Shown: positions 2,902-20,927 of the stretch, one piece after another
How the letters are laid out: each line of letters opens with the position of its first letter
How positions within the stretch are numbered: the stretch's first letter is position 1
Notes under the pieces: model-generated
What the model was told of the DNA's origin: nothing
Seen by the model: only the letters and a program-made list of their open reading frames with translations
Databases searched by the model: none
Made by a program: the position numbers and the translations under genes
IMG/VR virus record: IMGVR_UViG_3300042731_006779
Coordinates: 1-20,946 of that record
DNA length: 20,946 bases
From: a virus
Strand: one strand, 5' to 3'

Positions 2902-3168
2902 ATGGACAGATTTAAATTTATAGAAAACAGAAATATAAACGGCCCGGTTATTTGTGTAAACAAAGATTTAATCGAGATAAAAAATAGAGCTGAAAAGTTT
3001 TTTAGTCTGCCCAAATTGGCCAGGAAGATTTTTAAAATAAAAAAAAGAAAAATAGATCCTAGAAAAAATTGGGAAGCCATAAGTGAAGCCGAAAAAAATT
3101 TACAGATGGCTGGGTTGAGTACAAGTCGGTCGATAAATTGTAGATGTGCGCATATTATTTTAAAATAA
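2902..3168 (+). CDS. small cassette protein, paralogue 1, with MuF-like C-terminal tail
   Basis: This 88-residue basic protein is not recognised as a known family. Its first 17 residues (MDRFKFIENRNINGPVI) are identical to those of the gene at 3519, and similarity continues for about 50 residues (DLIEIK, ARKIFK). The C-termini then diverge completely. Here the end reads MAGLSTSRSINCRCAH, which resembles MPGLSASQAINCRCYA near the end of the MuF-like head protein at 19947-20927. At DNA level 3112-3147 matches 20748-20783 at 32 of 36 bases. The gene is thus a mosaic of the cassette protein and a head-morphogenesis gene end. I start it at the ATG at 2902, which has GAGGG 5-9 nt upstream, not at the in-frame TTG at 2890. 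A promoter and structured RNA follow directly, as they do after the paralogue. Confidence 0.6.
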   Translation: MDRFKFIENRNINGPVICVNKDLIEIKNRAEKFFSLPKLARKIFKIKKRKIDPRKNWEAISEAEKNLQMAGLSTSRSINCRCAHIILK

Positions 3169-3216
3169 TATATCCATTTTTGCTCTGACTACTTAAGTTC
3201 AGGAGAAAATTAATTA

Positions 3217-3245
3217 TTGACACCAGAATTATATTTTTTTATATT
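3217..3245 (+). promoter_or_regulatory. promoter of structured RNA copy 1
   Basis: TTGACA at 3217-3222, exact 17-nt spacer, TATATT at 3240-3245. Predicted transcription start is near 3252. It lies in the gap after the first cassette protein and points into the structured RNA, not at a nearby start codon. Confidence 0.8.
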
Positions 3246-3251
3246 ATACAA

Positions 3252-3359
3252 AGACAAGACTTCTTATAAACCTCTACTGTAACAAGTTTTGTAAAAAACT
3301 GAAAGCTCGTTGATCTCCCGTAGAGGACCTGAGAAGGTGGGAGATTAGCGGGCTTTTTT
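3252..3359 (+). ncRNA. pseudoknotted small RNA, copy 1
   Basis: This RNA of about 108 nt runs from a strong promoter to an intrinsic terminator and has no ORF. Elements in order: stem P1, CTTCTTATA (3260-3268) with TGTAACAAG (3278-3286), one C-C mismatch and one wobble; its loop holds segment A, CCTCTAC (3271-3277); a small hairpin AGTTTT-GTAA-AAAACT (3285-3300, sharing two bases with P1); linker GAAA; helix strand B (3305-3319); segment A' GTAGAGG (3320-3326), exactly complementary to A; mini-hairpin ACCT-GAGA-AGGT (3327-3338) with a GNRA loop; B' (3339-3353); then six T. Thus A/B/A'/B' interlace as a pseudoknot. A second copy at 3823-3991 keeps every helix despite sequence changes. The order of helices resembles a pistol ribozyme, but the pistol core bases are not evident. 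Function is unknown: an independent sRNA or a cis-acting attenuator of the gene at 3375. Confidence 0.75.
3305..3359 (+). terminator. intrinsic terminator of RNA copy 1
   Basis: A 15-bp helix, GCTCGTTGATCTCCC with GGGAGATTAGCGGGC, including three G-U wobbles, is followed by T6 at 3354-3359. Its 19-nt loop contains pseudoknot strand A' and a GNRA-capped mini-hairpin, so pairing of A with A' could alter termination into the gene at 3375. Confidence 0.8.
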
Positions 3360-3374
3360 ATTTTGAGGTATAAA

Positions 3375-3518
3375 ATGAATTTAAAAACATGGGAAGAATT
3401 AAAACAAAGAATAAACGACATGATAGAAACAGACGAACCAGGCTCAGAGAGTCAGCGCGCCTGGCATGTAGTTTTAATGACAATGAATGAAATAGAAAAA
3501 GAAGGGGAAGAGGTTTAA
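3375..3518 (+). CDS. small acidic protein of unknown function
   Basis: This 47-residue ORF begins 15 bases after the terminator of RNA copy 1 with the recurring GAGGTATAAAATG ribosome-site arrangement. The protein (start MNLKTWEELKQRINDMIE) is helical and acidic with no recognised domain. It ends EGEEV, where the codons GAG GTT TAA supply the SD and stop directly before the ATG of the second cassette protein at 3519. Its position suggests that either read-through of the terminator or the upstream operon expresses it. Coding support comes from the strong SD, in-frame spacing and neighbour coupling. Confidence 0.6.
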   Translation: MNLKTWEELKQRINDMIETDEPGSESQRAWHVVLMTMNEIEKEGEEV

Positions 3519-3791
3519 ATGGACAGATTTAAATTTATAGAAAACAGGAATATAAACGGACCAGTCATCTACAATAACAATGATTTAATTGAGATAAAAA
3601 GCAGAGCTGGAAAGTTTTTAAGCATGCCGGGAATGGCGCGGAAGATTTTTAAGTTTAAAAAGAAAATAAAAATGATATATGGAAATGAATTTCATTTTTT
3701 CGAAATAGATGAAGCGGCAGGAGTAAGCGACGAAACAGAGGACAGCGTTTCGAAAAAAATTTTACAGATAATTGCAAAATATAATTATTGA
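3519..3791 (+). CDS. small cassette protein, paralogue 2
   Basis: This 90-residue protein shares MDRFKFIENRNINGPVI exactly, and about 50 N-terminal residues by similarity, with the gene at 2902, then ends in an unrelated acidic tail (EFHFFEIDEAAGVSDETED) instead of the MuF-like tail. The common half is basic (RKIFKFKKKIK) and might bind nucleic acid, which is inference from composition only. Its stop codon overlaps the -35 box of the next RNA promoter: the TTGACA at 3788-3793 includes the TGA stop. The unit of gene, promoter, structured RNA and small following gene is thus duplicated with a period of about 620-630 bases. The protein may act with the RNA that always follows it, but no direct evidence exists. 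Confidence 0.65.
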   Translation: MDRFKFIENRNINGPVIYNNNDLIEIKSRAGKFLSMPGMARKIFKFKKKIKMIYGNEFHFFEIDEAAGVSDETEDSVSKKILQIIAKYNY

Positions 3792-3816
3792 CATCAGGGC
3801 TATCTTTTTGTATATT
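3788..3816 (+). promoter_or_regulatory. promoter of structured RNA copy 2
   Basis: TTGACA at 3788-3793, 17-nt spacer, TATATT at 3811-3816. The -35 box overlaps the stop codon of the preceding gene. Predicted start is near 3823. Confidence 0.8.
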
Positions 3817-3856
3817 GAATAGTGATTTGTAACATACCTCAGTCGCTTATTGAGGT

Positions 3857-3889
3857 GCAATAGAACAGACGTTATGTCTGTTCTATTGC
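3857..3889 (+). repeat. perfect 14-bp inverted repeat with 5-nt loop
   Basis: GCAATAGAACAGAC (3857-3870), loop GTTAT, then the exact reverse complement (3876-3889). It is present in RNA copy 2 only, upstream of the shared pseudoknot module, and no T-tract follows. Confidence 0.9.
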
Positions 3890-3938
3890 AAGACTTATTG
3901 GAACTCTCCGCTTCAGTAAGTTTTGAATAAAACTGAAA

Positions 3939-3991
3939 GCTCGTTAATCTTCCGCGGAGACCCGAAAGGGGGGAGATTGACGGGCTTTTTT
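3939..3991 (+). terminator. intrinsic terminator of RNA copy 2
   Basis: GCTCGTTAATCTTCC pairs over 15 bp with GGGAGATTGACGGGC and is followed by T6 at 3986-3991. The loop again carries A' and a GNRA mini-hairpin. The next gene starts 15 bases later. Confidence 0.8.
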
Positions 3992-4005
3992 ATTTGGAGG
4001 AAAAA

Positions 4006-4200
4006 ATGTATTGGAACGATGTAAAATGTCCAAGTTGTGGAATAGAAGAATATTTTATTGATGACATTTCTGATTATGCTTTTAGTATTTTAGTTGAAGA
4101 GAGGTTTATTATTGAGTGTTATAATTGCAAGAAAAAAATAATAATTAGACTTGAAGATTGTCAAGTTAATGCCGAGGTTAAAAATGATACAAAATATTGA
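4006..4200 (+). CDS. zinc-ribbon protein
   Basis: This 64-residue protein has CPSC at about residues 7-10 and CYNC at about 35-38, the two knuckles of a zinc ribbon, separated by a short acidic and hydrophobic stretch. I start it at 4006 because GGAGG lies 7 nt upstream; the in-frame TTG at 3994 is part of that ribosome site region. The gene sits just after the second structured RNA terminator. It overlaps the start of the initiator-like gene by 17 bases, so the two are probably translationally coupled. No enzymatic domain is visible; a DNA- or RNA-binding accessory is a reasonable guess only. Confidence 0.65.
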   Translation: MYWNDVKCPSCGIEEYFIDDISDYAFSILVEERFIIECYNCKKKIIIRLEDCQVNAEVKNDTKY

Positions 4201-5011
4201 GAAAGTAAAAAATATAAAAACAGAGTGTGACGGCGATTTAATTTTTGTGACAGTTGCAAAATATAAACTGTTTTTGAGTTACGGTAAAATAGGAATAGAT
4301 GCTTATGTTTTATATTCGCATTTAATGTTTACGGCAAGATTGCAGGGAACCAACCAGGTCAAAGCAAAAGATATTTATTTACGCGCTGGCCTGGAATGGG
4401 GAGAAAAAAGAGTAAAAAGAGCCAAAAGATTATTATATGATTTAAATTTGATAGAACTAATAAGGGTAAGAGATAATAAAGGTATATTTACAGATTCTTA
4501 TTTGCGAGTAGAGACCAGGACAACTCCTTTTGAGATAAAAAGTGTTGAAAATCAATCCACAGGGTCAGTTGCCACCCCGGTGGATAGCCACCCCGGTGGC
4601 AATGAAGAACAAATGCTTAAACGAAAAAGTAAATGCTTAAACGAAAAAGTAAATACATATACTAATTTCTACGAAACAATTTTTAATAAATGGATTTTTT
4701 ATAAAGACTTAATGCAACATAAATCCATAAATACTTTCAAAAAGCAGATAAGCAAAAACAAAGTAAAAGATATACTTGAAGAATACTCTTTAACAGAAGT
4801 AACTAACTCTATAGACAATTATAATTTTGTTTTAACTAATAGTGAATATACTTTTACATATAGATGGCCATTGTGGGATTTTTTAAATCGGGGATTACAC
4901 AAATTCGTGGATCTGGCAAACCCCCTTACTAACTACAAAAAAAGAAACTATAACCAGGAGAGCCAATCTAATACAGTAAACAGACGTATAGTAAATGCCT
5001 CTGATTTATAA
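4184..5011 (+). CDS. probable replication initiator / replisome organizer-like protein
   Basis: This 275-residue protein has an N-terminal part (about 20-105) resembling a winged-helix domain of phage replication proteins: YGKIGIDAYVLYSHLMF, then KAKDIYLRAGLEWGEKRVKRAKRLLYDLNLIELIR. A low-complexity linker around residues 125-155 is followed by a C-terminal helical part ending in YRWPLWDFLNRGLHKF. This layout is common for DnaD- or O-like initiators that recruit helicase. Two sets of direct repeats (4571-4654) lie in the linker-coding region, as origins lie within lambda O. The DnaB helicase is encoded 3.5 kb downstream. I chose the ATG at 4184 with GAGGT 8-12 nt upstream; the longer frame to 4151 lacks a good SD. 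The assignment is by architecture, without a clear family signature. Confidence 0.55.
   Translation: MIQNIEKVKNIKTECDGDLIFVTVAKYKLFLSYGKIGIDAYVLYSHLMFTARLQGTNQVKAKDIYLRAGLEWGEKRVKRAKRLLYDLNLIELIRVRDNKGIFTDSYLRVETRTTPFEIKSVENQSTGSVATPVDSHPGGNEEQMLKRKSKCLNEKVNTYTNFYETIFNKWIFYKDLMQHKSINTFKKQISKNKVKDILEEYSLTEVTNSIDNYNFVLTNSEYTFTYRWPLWDFLNRGLHKFVDLANPLTNYKKRNYNQESQSNTVNRRIVNASDL
4571..4654 (+). repeat. iteron-like repeats inside the initiator gene (candidate origin)
   Basis: Set 1: GCCACCCCGGTGG at 4571-4583 and 4587-4599, period 16. Each copy is nearly palindromic and much more G+C-rich than its surroundings. Set 2: aaatgcttaaacgaaaaagt at 4611-4630 and again at 4631-4650, followed by AAAT (4651-4654). 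Neither period is a multiple of three, so the copies are read in different frames (VATPVD then SHPGG; MLKRKSK then CLNEKVN). Conservation is therefore at DNA level, as expected of protein-binding iterons or of recent duplication. Confidence 0.6.
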
Positions 5012-5039
5012 CTTTTTTGGAAAAAAATAAAAAAAAAGC

Positions 5040-5068
5040 TTGACAAAAGATAACCTTGTTGCTATATT
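5040..5068 (+). promoter_or_regulatory. sigma70-type promoter
   Basis: TTGACA at 5040-5045, 17-nt spacer, TATATT at 5063-5068. It lies in the gap after the initiator-like gene and 37 bases before the next ATG. It would drive the gene at 5105 and the hammerhead that follows. Confidence 0.8.
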
Positions 5069-5104
5069 TAATTTAAGATTATTACAGAATAAAGGGGATT
5101 TAAA

Positions 5105-5392
5105 ATGAAAAATTTAAAAAAAGTTAAGTTAACAACAAATGTAAGAAGAAATACACATTTGGCAGGAACTCAGCATGAATACAAGAGAGGACAAGAGTTA
5201 GATTTATATTTTGAAACTTTCATAGAAATTTATAATAAGAAAGGTGATTATATAATGACTGTTGATTCTGATTATCCGTTTGGTTATAATAGCTGGTATT
5301 ATTCAAAAGATGAATGTGCAACAAAAGAATTTGTTGCACCTGTTCTTGATAATATAAGATTAAGTTCAAATGAGTATGAAATAATATTTTAA
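5105..5392 (+). CDS. protein of unknown function
   Basis: This 95-residue protein starts at an ATG with AAAGGGG upstream and is the first gene after the promoter at 5040-5068. I do not recognise it. The N-terminus is basic (MKNLKKVKLTTNVRRN); the middle has alternating hydrophobic and aromatic residues (LDLYFETFIEIYNKK, YPFGYNSWYYSKDE) suggesting a small beta-rich fold. It contains one cysteine and no signal peptide or membrane segment. Its stop codon directly abuts the 5' strand of the hammerhead ribozyme, so cleavage would leave this message with a defined 3' end 35 bases after the stop. Confidence 0.6.
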   Translation: MKNLKKVKLTTNVRRNTHLAGTQHEYKRGQELDLYFETFIEIYNKKGDYIMTVDSDYPFGYNSWYYSKDECATKEFVAPVLDNIRLSSNEYEIIF

Positions 5393-5462
5393 TTTTCGAA
5401 ACGCTCCGGCAGGAAGGACGGGGCGTCCGTCGGAAGGTGGTTGACCGGCGCTGATGAGAAAG
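5393..5462 (+). ncRNA. type II hammerhead self-cleaving ribozyme
   Basis: All core elements are present in the permuted type II order. Stem II 5' strand TTTTC (5393-5397); GAAA (5398-5401); stem III CGCTCC (5402-5407) with GGGGCG (5420-5425), one G-U, 12-nt loop; cleavage triplet GTC (5425-5427); stem I CGTCGG (5428-5433) with CCGGCG (5445-5450), one G-U, 11-nt loop; CTGATGA (5451-5457); stem II 3' strand GAAAG (5458-5462). The last A of GAAA pairs with T5426 as in known hammerheads. Predicted cleavage is after C5427. The gene at 5105 ends just upstream and the STAS gene starts 65 bases downstream, so the ribozyme would split their shared transcript. Stem II is short and A/U-rich, which could make activity conditional. 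Confidence 0.85.
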
Positions 5463-5467
5463 ACCAA

Positions 5468-5511
5468 TTCCCTTTAGCCCCCTTAGCGGGGGGCAATTTA
5501 AAAAAAGGGAA
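5468..5511 (+). repeat. GC-rich hairpin in leader of STAS gene
   Basis: The outer arms TTCCCTTT (5468-5475) and AAAGGGAA (5504-5511) enclose an inner stem GCCCCC (5477-5482) with GGGGGC (5489-5494). It lies between the ribozyme and the ribosome site of the STAS gene; no T-tract follows. It may protect the cleaved 5' end or affect translation. Confidence 0.7.
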
Positions 5512-6244: not shown

Positions 6245-6353
6245 GGCAAAGTGGCGGAATTGGTAGACGTTAAAGTACAACGGGATAAGATTAACGGCGG
6301 CCCTAAGACACCCGGTAACGTTAATCATGAGGGTTCGAGTCCCTCCTTTGCCA
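6245..6353 (+). tRNA. tRNA-Leu-like element 1, non-canonical centre
   Basis: The outer parts are textbook: acceptor GGCAAAG (6245-6251) pairs perfectly with CTTTGCC (6346-6352) plus discriminator A; the D arm GGCGGAATTGGTAGACG has leucine-tRNA identity-like sequence; T arm GAGGG-TTCGAGT-CCCTC (6329-6345) is perfect. No CCA is encoded. Between D and T arms lie 58 nt (6271-6328), where about 31-34 are expected for a class II tRNA. No 5-bp/7-nt anticodon arm is evident there. Instead GATTAACG (6289-6296) is complementary to CGTTAATC (6319-6326), and TTAACG can also pair with CGTTAA at 6268-6273. I could not assign an anticodon. It may hold an intron-like insert, be a tRNA mimic, or be a decayed gene. 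Confidence 0.6.
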
Positions 6354-10173: not shown

Positions 10174-10558
10174 AAAAATATTACAGAAAATGAAGGAAAA
10201 AAAATATATAAAAAATTTGGATAAAATTAAAGAAGACACTGCAAAACAGGTAAAAAAACAGCTTGAAAAAGAGTTCAAAGCGGAAAAAAAACGGATCGAA
10301 GAAATAAACAATACAAAAATAGCAGAGATGCAAGCAGAAGTAAATTTTTTGAATAAAGAAAATAGCAGACTGAATAAAAAATTAAACGAAATAAAAAATA
10401 TGAAAGTGTTTTATAGAAATAAAGCGCTTGAAATAAGAATGATGTTTAATAAAATAAAATACTGGGTGACTGAGCAACAGATGAACAAAACAGATTCTTT
10501 CCAATTTGCTTTGTCGCTTACAGACGATCTGCAAAAAATTGAAAAGGGGGAAAAATGA
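10160..10558 (+). CDS. coiled-coil protein of unknown function
   Basis: This 132-residue protein is highly charged (K and E rich). Residues 1-90 have heptad spacing over a long stretch (KKQLEKEFKAEKKRIEE, then IAEMQAEVNFLNKENSRL) consistent with a coiled coil. It overlaps both neighbours, by 14 bases upstream and 4 bases (ATGA) downstream, so it belongs to the same translational chain. No enzymatic motif is visible. Confidence 0.6.
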   Translation: MKKIKKILQKMKEKKYIKNLDKIKEDTAKQVKKQLEKEFKAEKKRIEEINNTKIAEMQAEVNFLNKENSRLNKKLNEIKNMKVFYRNKALEIRMMFNKIKYWVTEQQMNKTDSFQFALSLTDDLQKIEKGEK

Positions 10559-11172
10559 ACAAAAATGAATTAAATTTATTGTTAGAACATCACACTGAAT
10601 GGTTAGATGATGAAGGTGGGGAACGAGCTGACTTGTCCGGAGCAGACTTGTATAAAGCAGATTTGAGTGGGGTAAATTTGGGAATAGCTAACTTGGTCGG
10701 AGCTAACTTGAGTAAAGCTAACTTAGAACGAGCTAACTTAAGAGGAACTAACTTGAGTGGAGCTGACTTGGTCGAAGCTAACTTGAGTGAAGCTGACTTA
10801 GAACGAGCTAACTTGTCCGGAGCTAACTTGAGTGAAGCTGACTTGAGTGAAGCTGACTTGAGTGGAGCAGATTTGTTTGGAGCTAACTTGTCCGGAGCAG
10901 ACTTGAGTGGAGCTGAAATAACAGCACAACAACTGTTTTATGCAATTACTAATAAAACAAAATTGGATCATATTTTGCTAAAAGTAGAAGGTTCAAATTG
11001 TTTGTTTTGTGCGTATAATTTAGGGATAAAAATAGGATGTGTTTACGCAACGTTAGATTACTGGAAAAAAAATTATAAAGAAATTGCGGAAAAGAAAAAC
11101 ATTGGAAATAAAGGAATAAAGGAATATTTAAATTACATAAAAATATATGAACAATTGTTAAAAAAAGGATAG
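10555..11172 (+). CDS. pentapeptide-repeat protein
   Basis: This 205-residue protein contains about 20 consecutive A-[DN]-L-x-x repeats (residues about 23-123; for example GADLYKADLSGVNL, RANLRGTNLSGADL), the signature of the right-handed quadrilateral beta-helix. The N-terminal HHTEWLDDEGGERADL cap matches many phage pentapeptide proteins. After the repeats comes a unique C-terminal domain of about 80 residues with four cysteines (including LFCAYNLGIKIGC). Some family members mimic DNA and bind gyrase, but most have unknown roles, and nothing here shows a gyrase link. The repeat-coding DNA is itself repetitive (AGCTAACTTGAGTG-like units), so copy number may vary by slippage. ATGA overlap with the previous gene, SD AAGGGGG. 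Confidence 0.9.
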   Translation: MNKNELNLLLEHHTEWLDDEGGERADLSGADLYKADLSGVNLGIANLVGANLSKANLERANLRGTNLSGADLVEANLSEADLERANLSGANLSEADLSEADLSGADLFGANLSGADLSGAEITAQQLFYAITNKTKLDHILLKVEGSNCLFCAYNLGIKIGCVYATLDYWKKNYKEIAEKKNIGNKGIKEYLNYIKIYEQLLKKG

Positions 11173-15011: not shown

Positions 15012-15506
15012 ATGTATTATTTTTGCGAAAGATGTGGTTCGCTTGAAATTGATTATATTCAATATTTATCAGGAATAAAATTTAAATGTAGAAGTTGTGA
15101 TTATGAATATTATCCAAAATCTAATTTTGATCAAGGGGAAAAAGAGGTAATAAATATGAAAAAAAGTGATCTGAAGACAGGGATGTTGGTTAAAACAAGG
15201 GGCGGGGAGAGACTTATAGTTTTTTTAAATTCATGTGGTGGCGAAGATTATCTAGTTGACAATACTCATGCTTATTTAAATTTGGCTTCTTACTCTGATG
15301 ACCTGATTATTTTTCCAAAAAATGTTTTTTTTGATATCAAAACCATCTATGGTTTCATAGATGGAAATAGGCGTTCTTCTTATTTTTCATTTTCTATCGA
15401 AAAACGCAAAATTCTTTGGGATCGAAAAGAAGAATACTTAGTGACAATGCAGCAAATAGCGGATAAATTTGGTATTAATGTAGAAAATTTAAAGATAAAA
15501 AAATGA
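15012..15506 (+). CDS. zinc ribbon fused to a conserved phage domain, with internal start
   Basis: This 164-residue frame has a zinc ribbon at residues 1-40 (CERC and CRSC) and then, from the in-frame ATG at 15156, MKKSDLKTGMLVKTRGGERLIVFL, which is the usual first segment of an independent phage protein family I recall. The internal ATG has its own GAGGT site 8-12 nt upstream (GAGGTAATAAATATG). Thus the frame may encode both a fused product and a shorter 116-residue one, or two ancestral genes joined by loss of a stop. The C-terminus contains MQQIADKFGINVENLKI, a small HTH-like end. Function is unknown. Confidence 0.6.
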   Translation: MYYFCERCGSLEIDYIQYLSGIKFKCRSCDYEYYPKSNFDQGEKEVINMKKSDLKTGMLVKTRGGERLIVFLNSCGGEDYLVDNTHAYLNLASYSDDLIIFPKNVFFDIKTIYGFIDGNRRSSYFSFSIEKRKILWDRKEEYLVTMQQIADKFGINVENLKIKK

Positions 15507-19975: not shown

Positions 19976-20927
19976 TAATCTTGAAAAACAAACATATAAC
20001 GCATCGTTGAAGGAAGTAGAGGAGACAAATAAAAAGCTACTCAAGATATATAAAAAAGCAAATGACAACTTAATGAAACTGATAAACAGCCAGATAGAAA
20101 AAATAATATCAGGGCGAGTGAAAAGTCTTGATAAATTAGCACAGACAGAAATTCTACAAGCTCAAGTTGCGAACCAGATAGAAAAATTAAACAAGCGTGT
20201 AGACAGTGTTATACGATCAGGATATTTGACAAATTACGATAATGTTTATTACAGCACTGCATACAACTTGGAATTTGCAGCAACACAACGTTTCGGTTAT
20301 TCGTTAGAATTTCAAGTGCTTAACACTGAGTTAGCCGCTGCTAGTCTTGATGAACTGGTTGGCGGTGAAACTTTTCGCGGCAGAATGTTAAAACAACGGC
20401 TTAAGCTGCAAAACTTATTACGTGAAAATATAGCAACCGCAACAATCGAGGGCATTTCAACAAAAGAACTTGCAAAAAGATTGCAGGATATGCGCAAAAG
20501 TTTGAAATTGAGTTTAAGCAATGCTACAAGAATAGCAAGAACTGAGTTACTCCGAGCACATTCAATTAGCAATGACAAAGCAATTGAACAGTCTATCGCA
20601 TCAGGGCTCGAAGGCGAAAAAGTCTGGAATGCTACACTTGATAGTCGAACGCGCCCGGATCATGTGACAATGGATCAAAAAAAAGCAGACAAAGACGGAT
20701 ACTTTACATTGCCGAACGGAGATCGGGCAAAAGGGCCACGCATGCCCGGGTTGAGTGCAAGCCAGGCGATAAATTGTAGATGTTATGCGCAGTTTAGACC
20801 GTTTGGAATTGTCCCAACAGGAAAATCGAAAAAAATAGATGATAAATACAAGAAAAGAATAAGCATAAGCGACTTCAGAAAGTTTAAAACCAGCCTAAAA
20901 CGCCAACAAAATCAAACAACTGTGTAA
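19947..20927 (+). CDS. MuF-like minor head protein (SPP1 gp7 type)
   Basis: This 326-residue protein has a helical N-terminal domain followed by the Phage_Mu_F domain at about 180-270: LSNATRIARTELLRAHSISNDKAIEQS, then WNATLDSRTRPDHVTMD, DGYFTLPNGDRAKGPRMPGLSASQAINCRC. The R-T-E helix, the D-x-RTR-x-x-H strand and the final NCRC are the family's signature. In SPP1 the gp7 homologue travels into the head and influences DNA ejection. The start is uncertain: ATG at 19947 and 19956 both lie in the portal 3' end without a clear SD. The NCRC segment has a DNA-level relative at the end of the small gene at 2902. The stop codon lies within a short palindrome. Confidence 0.85.
   Translation: MTKMAKKTYNNLEKQTYNASLKEVEETNKKLLKIYKKANDNLMKLINSQIEKIISGRVKSLDKLAQTEILQAQVANQIEKLNKRVDSVIRSGYLTNYDNVYYSTAYNLEFAATQRFGYSLEFQVLNTELAAASLDELVGGETFRGRMLKQRLKLQNLLRENIATATIEGISTKELAKRLQDMRKSLKLSLSNATRIARTELLRAHSISNDKAIEQSIASGLEGEKVWNATLDSRTRPDHVTMDQKKADKDGYFTLPNGDRAKGPRMPGLSASQAINCRCYAQFRPFGIVPTGKSKKIDDKYKKRISISDFRKFKTSLKRQQNQTTV

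Follow-up and report, generated by a model that had tools for sequence, protein, structure and literature searches.

Two paralogous phage loci with the layout of a small structured RNA gene and a covarying loop-loop helix set in the terminator

What are two short blocks, each framed by a promoter and a terminator, doing between the small genes of a tailed phage? The window, that is, the whole stretch of 20,946 bases of phage DNA analysed here, contains two such blocks (3252-3359 and 3823-3991). An earlier note had described them as copies of a duplicated RNA with a pseudoknot built onto its terminator, and both units exist at the coordinates given, each with its promoter, complementary 7-nt strands, 15-bp helix and GNRA mini-hairpin. 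The question is whether the blocks are RNA genes in their own right, leaders of the genes behind them, ribozymes, or only strong terminators. We favour, at about an even chance, the first of these: a pair of paralogous accessory cassettes, each encoding a small non-coding RNA with a defined structure that acts mainly in trans.

Results

The phage and its sister

Profile matches to terminase, DnaB helicase and exonuclease mark the window as tailed-phage DNA, and SSB-, portal- and MuF-like proteins were recognised from the reading of its ORFs. The IMG/VR contig 3300035142_000041 (40,076 bp, with 127-bp terminal repeats) is identical to the window over 12,189 compared bases, the RNA region included. 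In GenBank the best terminase relatives are those of Nitratiruptor phages (43-44%). One sister phage was found (G002, IMG/VR 3300035133_000039, 40,093 bp), with a terminase that is 98% identical and with ~5% difference across most of the parts that the two phages share. Both RNA slots of the sister are occupied by unrelated sequence, so that neither unit is present; it keeps the 47-aa ORF between the two slots, and the exchange junctions coincide with start codons. The RNA cassettes, which sit in the early/replication region, are therefore accessory in the genome.

Layout of the two units

Each of the paralogous units consists of a strong, near-consensus sigma-70-type promoter, an RNA core of ~105 nt and an intrinsic terminator, and in both the order is ORF A, promoter, short RNA, terminator, Shine-Dalgarno sequence and gene (Table 1). 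The Shine-Dalgarno sequence and the start codon of the next gene follow directly after the terminator, and the conserved block extends to that start codon. By inspection ATG is absent within RNA 1, and the two units hold the strongest terminator-like sites of the phage on the forward strand. A similar promoter at window position 5040 opens directly into a gene, with neither RNA nor terminator between them, and the succession of promoter, RNA and terminator is therefore not the general leader design of this phage. A TTGACA-TATATT promoter is contained in a 110-bp inverted dispersed repeat (window 5002-5110, contig 21849-21957, against contig 15182-15291; 97% identity), the other copy of which lies just upstream of the window.

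Table 1 Features of the two units and their flanking genes, in window coordinates
Feature	Position	Strand	Remarks
ORF A1, 88 aa, small basic protein	2902..3168	+	first ~50 codons paralogous to ORF A2
Promoter 1, TTGACA - 17 nt - TATATT	3217..3245	+	11/12 consensus match
RNA 1, predicted transcript of ~108 nt	3252..3359	+	from promoter and terminator positions; fold z-score -5.8
RNA 1 P1 hairpin, 3254-3268/3278-3292	3254..3292	+	loop AA plus kissing strand 3271-3277 (7 nt)
RNA 1 A-rich single-stranded linker	3293..3304	+	AAAACUGAAA conserved in both copies
RNA 1 terminator hairpin	3305..3359	+	helix 3305-3319/3339-3353; U-tract 3354-3359
RNA 1 pseudoknot strand; GNRA mini-hairpin	3320-3326; 3327-3338	+	within terminator hairpin
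47-aa ORF behind RNA 1	3375..3518	+	also in sister phage G002
ORF A2, 90 aa, paralogue of ORF A1	3519..3791	+	stop codon within -35 box of promoter 2
Promoter 2, TTGACA - 17 nt - TATATT	3788..3816	+	
RNA 2, predicted transcript of ~169 nt	3823..3991	+	
5' extension of RNA 2 only, 66 nt	3823..3889	+	two hairpins; fold z-score -6.8
RNA 2 extension hairpins	3836-3843/3849-3856; 3857-3870/3876-3889	+	second one 14 bp, perfect
RNA 2 P1 hairpin, 3888-3902/3912-3926	3888..3926	+	kissing strand 3905-3911
RNA 2 A-rich linker	3927..3938	+	
RNA 2 terminator hairpin	3939..3991	+	helix 3939-3953/3971-3985; U-tract 3986-3991
RNA 2 pseudoknot strand; GNRA mini-hairpin	3954-3960; 3961-3970	+	within terminator hairpin
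64-aa zinc-ribbon-like ORF behind RNA 2	4006..4200	+	

A common fold of the RNA core

The predicted fold shared by the two cores begins with a 15-bp P1, two A/C loop bases and a 7-nt kissing strand abutting the P1 3' strand, and continues with an A-rich linker of 12 nt that leads to the terminator, where a helix of 15 bp encloses the GNRA mini-hairpin and is followed by a U6 tract. The partner kissing strand abuts the 5' strand of the terminator helix in both copies, CCTCTAC pairing with GTAGAGG in copy 1 and TCTCCGC with GCGGAGA in copy 2. In the minimum-energy folds of the two copies P1 runs as a single continuous hairpin; two of its pairs are compensatory, and a C.C mismatch in copy 1 is replaced by A-U in copy 2. 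Because P1 contains AAGUUUUG, it competes with the AGTTTT/AAAACT hairpin of the earlier note, which shares a strand with it and, taken alone, is far weaker (-3.5 and -2.3 kcal/mol versus -9.3 and -13.7 kcal/mol for P1).

The cognate kissing loops (-9.3 and -11.4 kcal/mol) are far stronger than the cross pairs (-4.3 and -3.2 kcal/mol), so that each RNA would lock with its own kind alone, either within one molecule or between two in a dimer. By a rough estimate of the geometry, P1 stacked on the kissing helix makes 22 bp and the terminator helix 15 bp; in a collinear arrangement the ends would be 104 Å apart, more than the 78-85 Å or so that the 12-nt linker can span, which rules this arrangement out. 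On the same rough estimate the arms would have to bend by ~73 degrees or more, for which the mini-hairpin junction leaves room, unless the kiss is intermolecular. As the pseudoknot strand lies within the terminator loop, the pseudoknot can form together with the terminator, and the folds examined showed neither a competing antiterminator nor another pairing that would disrupt the terminator hairpin. The pseudoknot-controlled attenuator that had been considered for this locus thus finds no support in the base pairing.

Divergence and covariation between the copies

The copies differ by 25 substitutions in 100 columns of the core, in an alignment that is gapless except for two bases in the mini-hairpin. 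Despite this 25% divergence there is no indel in P1, the kissing strands, the linker or the terminator helix, and only the mini-hairpin lost one pair; all 39 core pairs are formed in copy 2 and 38 of them in copy 1. In seven pairs both partners differ between the copies: three kissing pairs, one in the mini-hairpin and three in P1, the third of these being the C.C versus A-U position. The three double changes among the seven kissing pairs, already noticed in the first reading, are all Watson-Crick, and the terminator helix has kept 15/15 pairs through four one-sided wobble changes, each a G-U/A-U or G-U/G-C swap that preserves RNA pairing and spoils the DNA palindrome.

Under a random-substitution null, 28.0 pairs and 1.1 double changes were expected; the observed pairing was reached in 0/200,000 and the seven double changes in 2/200,000. 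With the substitution sites fixed and the letters redrawn, the corresponding counts were 56/200,000 and 287/200,000. The three double changes of the kissing pairs alone are less rare (129/200,000 under the first null and 27,164/200,000 with the sites fixed), and the statistical strength therefore comes from the whole structure. Among composition-matched random sequence pairs, a shared 7-bp helix with three double changes was seen in 2/3,000, and when the partners were slid by 1-3 columns, pairing fell from 97.5% to 41-51% and the double changes to 0. Selection on RNA structure, as proposed in the earlier note, is thus borne out by pairing and double changes far above the random-substitution null, and the double changes lie in P1, the kissing pairs and the mini-hairpin. 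Since no homologues were found in the collections searched, this covariation rests on two sequences, both from one phage, which limits the weight of the evidence until more members are found.

The base of P1, the linker and the base of the terminator are nearly fixed between the copies and both kissing loops have changed together, which suggests that selection acts on the shape and on the constant parts, and that the two loops are unlikely to recognise one shared antisense target.

ORF A and the history of the cassettes

The RNA block is duplicated, as had been stated, but it is not the whole of the duplication, which includes the 5' 160 bp of the upstream ORF. The two proteins, ORF A1 and ORF A2, each encoded upstream of its unit's promoter, are 56% identical and lysine/arginine-rich. 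Over the first 49 codons dN is 0.13 and dS 1.12, so that purifying selection acts on the protein and the copies are old. Set against the synonymous divergence of the linked ORF A (~1.1 per site), the RNA, changed at 0.25 of its sites, is conserved beyond neutral drift, if both blocks share their history. As the sister phages differ by only about 5%, the cassettes must have diverged long before the two phages did, possibly after an ancient duplication or through separate acquisitions from an unsampled pool.

No relatives of ORF A were found in IMG/VR or among GenBank phages, and the profile search gave only weak PHROG hits, with no match to a recognised RNA-binding domain or antiterminator family; its structure model is of low confidence (pLDDT 51). 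The C-terminus of ORF A1 (MAGLSTSRSINCRC) resembles part of the MuF-like head gene of this phage, so that the 3' end of the ORF, directly ahead of the RNA promoter, is mosaic, and window 3106-3147 matches 20742-20783 over 42 bp at 86% identity.

Searches for relatives and targets

Neither copy matches any RNA family in Rfam, in line with the first impression of an unrecognised family. The covariance model suggested in the earlier note was built, and its search over the retrieved loci and records returned the phage itself only, as did the RNA and promoter pattern scans of IMG/VR and blastn of GenBank phages with the RNA. About 1,370 sampled genomes in four groups yielded no relatives, nor did the route through neighbouring genes lead to others. 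Several candidates were rejected: 17 further matches to a looser terminator-shaped pattern, none with a matching fold; 37 matches in the pattern scan of genome contigs, near the chance expectation and none convincing by model score; and the covariance-model matches L074 and L081, which match on both strands and appear to be bidirectional terminators of the ordinary kind.

Outside the copies, no stretch of the phage complementary to the RNAs was longer than 11 nt among the best eight matches listed per strand, those of the minus strand being filled by the copies themselves. When the C-rich P1 loops were compared with the start regions of the phage, an anti-Shine-Dalgarno signal was weak for copy 1 (8/300 shuffles) and not found for copy 2 (62/300 shuffles).

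Discussion

With a promoter of its own, a terminator and a non-coding body, each unit reads as a candidate small RNA of an undescribed family, much as the earlier note had proposed. Each RNA would be transcribed from its own strong promoter and end at its own terminator, after which the 7-nt P1 loop would kiss the 7-nt strand in the terminator loop, the A-rich linker joining both hairpins. The outcome would be a compact RNA with two arms, its 3' end presumably protected from exonucleases, that would probably be bound by a host or phage protein, possibly ORF A, as ligand, decoy or co-factor. Selection on the shape and the constant parts would fit such binding by a protein better than an antisense role of the loops. 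If expressed, this would be a phage RNA selected for its loop-loop lock with the terminator and connected as two ribozyme classes are, but without a catalytic core. It would show that such a fold can be put to non-catalytic use, and the linked ORF A offers a directly testable RNA-protein pair.

The main rival reading, possible though one we doubt, is that of a cis-acting leader, in which promoter, structured leader and terminator together control read-through into the next gene. In phage lambda, pR', the 6S leader RNA and tR' are immediately preceded by gene Q, and in HK022 the put RNA itself modifies polymerase. The phage units share with these systems the order of small protein gene, strong promoter, short RNA, terminator and genes; by analogy, ORF A could encode an antiterminator, or the RNA itself could act on polymerase. 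That this order recurs in both copies, that the conserved block stops at the next start codon, and that ORF A, a basic protein held by purifying selection, was duplicated together with the RNA block all speak for a leader. However, ORF A has only 88-90 aa and matches no Q, N or other antiterminator family, the folds examined showed no pairing alternative to the terminator, the genes downstream (the 47-aa ORF and the zinc-ribbon ORF) are unrelated, and G002 has the 47-aa gene without the RNA.

In helix order and pseudoknot topology the fold resembles known ribozymes. In the pistol ribozyme (RF02679) the P1 loop forms a pseudoknot with the left-shoulder junction of two other stems, a linker joins P1 and the second helix, and the GU dinucleotide of the right shoulder, of strictly conserved length, is cleaved (PMC4604425). 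The pseudoknot-containing hammerhead ribozyme has essentially identical connectivity (PMC11300833), and the phage RNA shares it. The earlier note's likeness in helix order to pistol with no apparent pistol core is confirmed. Where pistol has its two-nucleotide right-shoulder junction, both copies have 0 nt between mini-hairpin and terminator helix; where the hammerhead has core nucleotides between helix I, pseudoknot and helix III, there are again 0 nt and the strands abut. The phage RNAs further differ from pistol in their lack of catalytic junction nucleotides, in having P1 and second helix of 15 bp each, and in ending as an intrinsic terminator. The pistol model RF02679 gave no match at E<=10, and no hammerhead was matched in 3150-4050 at E<=5. 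A bolder version, which we consider unlikely, is that of a new phage RNA class in which the pistol or pseudoknot-hammerhead fold, set on the RNA's terminator, serves as a non-catalytic scaffold with ORF A or a host protein as its partner.

It is decidedly unlikely that the blocks are merely unusually strong terminators or act as DNA, for instance as a replication origin, with the kissing complementarity arising by chance. Replication genes are nearby, the region is rich in hairpins, a terminator helix would be conserved in any case, and the kissing pairs alone are less striking once substitution sites are fixed. Yet P1, the kissing pairs and the mini-hairpin jointly covary far more than chance would allow, which termination does not require, the wobble changes point to RNA and not to DNA, and the sister phage shares most of the genome without having the element.

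Counter-defence by an RNA that mimics a host defence RNA, either a CRISPR repeat as in Racr or a type III antitoxin as in pseudo-ToxI, is very unlikely here. Racr are short phage non-coding RNAs, with candidates located behind a predicted promoter (PMC10651486), and pseudo-ToxI is likewise a short phage-encoded non-coding RNA (PMC3475682); the phage RNAs have this genetic style in common with them, but the fold is different. In the Rfam search the one sign of repeat mimicry of the Racr kind was a CRISPR-DR6 match to copy 2, sub-threshold and at noise level (18.3 bits, E 0.82); copy 1 has none. The ToxI units of type III antitoxins are ~36-nt pseudoknots in tandem repeats, found with a toxin gene, whereas each phage transcript has, by inspection, a single unit with no Rfam match at E<=5, and the ORFs behind the RNAs are of 47 and 64 aa.

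A self-cleaving ribozyme of the pistol or pseudoknot-hammerhead type, intact or decayed, is largely refuted in spite of the identical topology and of a hammerhead elsewhere in the same phage, since the position of the pistol cleavage dinucleotide has 0 nt, the kissing strand alone occupies the left shoulder, both copies are without a core, and no ribozyme family is matched at E<=5.

That other hammerhead, of type II, lies at window 5394-5468 between ORFs of 95 and 100 aa; it scores 49.7 bits, above the Rfam gathering score, and is conserved in the sister phage (L054 5603-5677). Two further features of the window were noted. A tRNA-like element at 6245-6353 (Rfam, 36 bits; not detected by ARAGORN) has acceptor, D and T arms in the style of a leucine tRNA and an enlarged middle with a GATTAACG...CGTTAATC hairpin, and positions 10555-11172 encode a pentapeptide-repeat-like protein with ADLSGANLS repeats, the DNA of which is internally repetitive.
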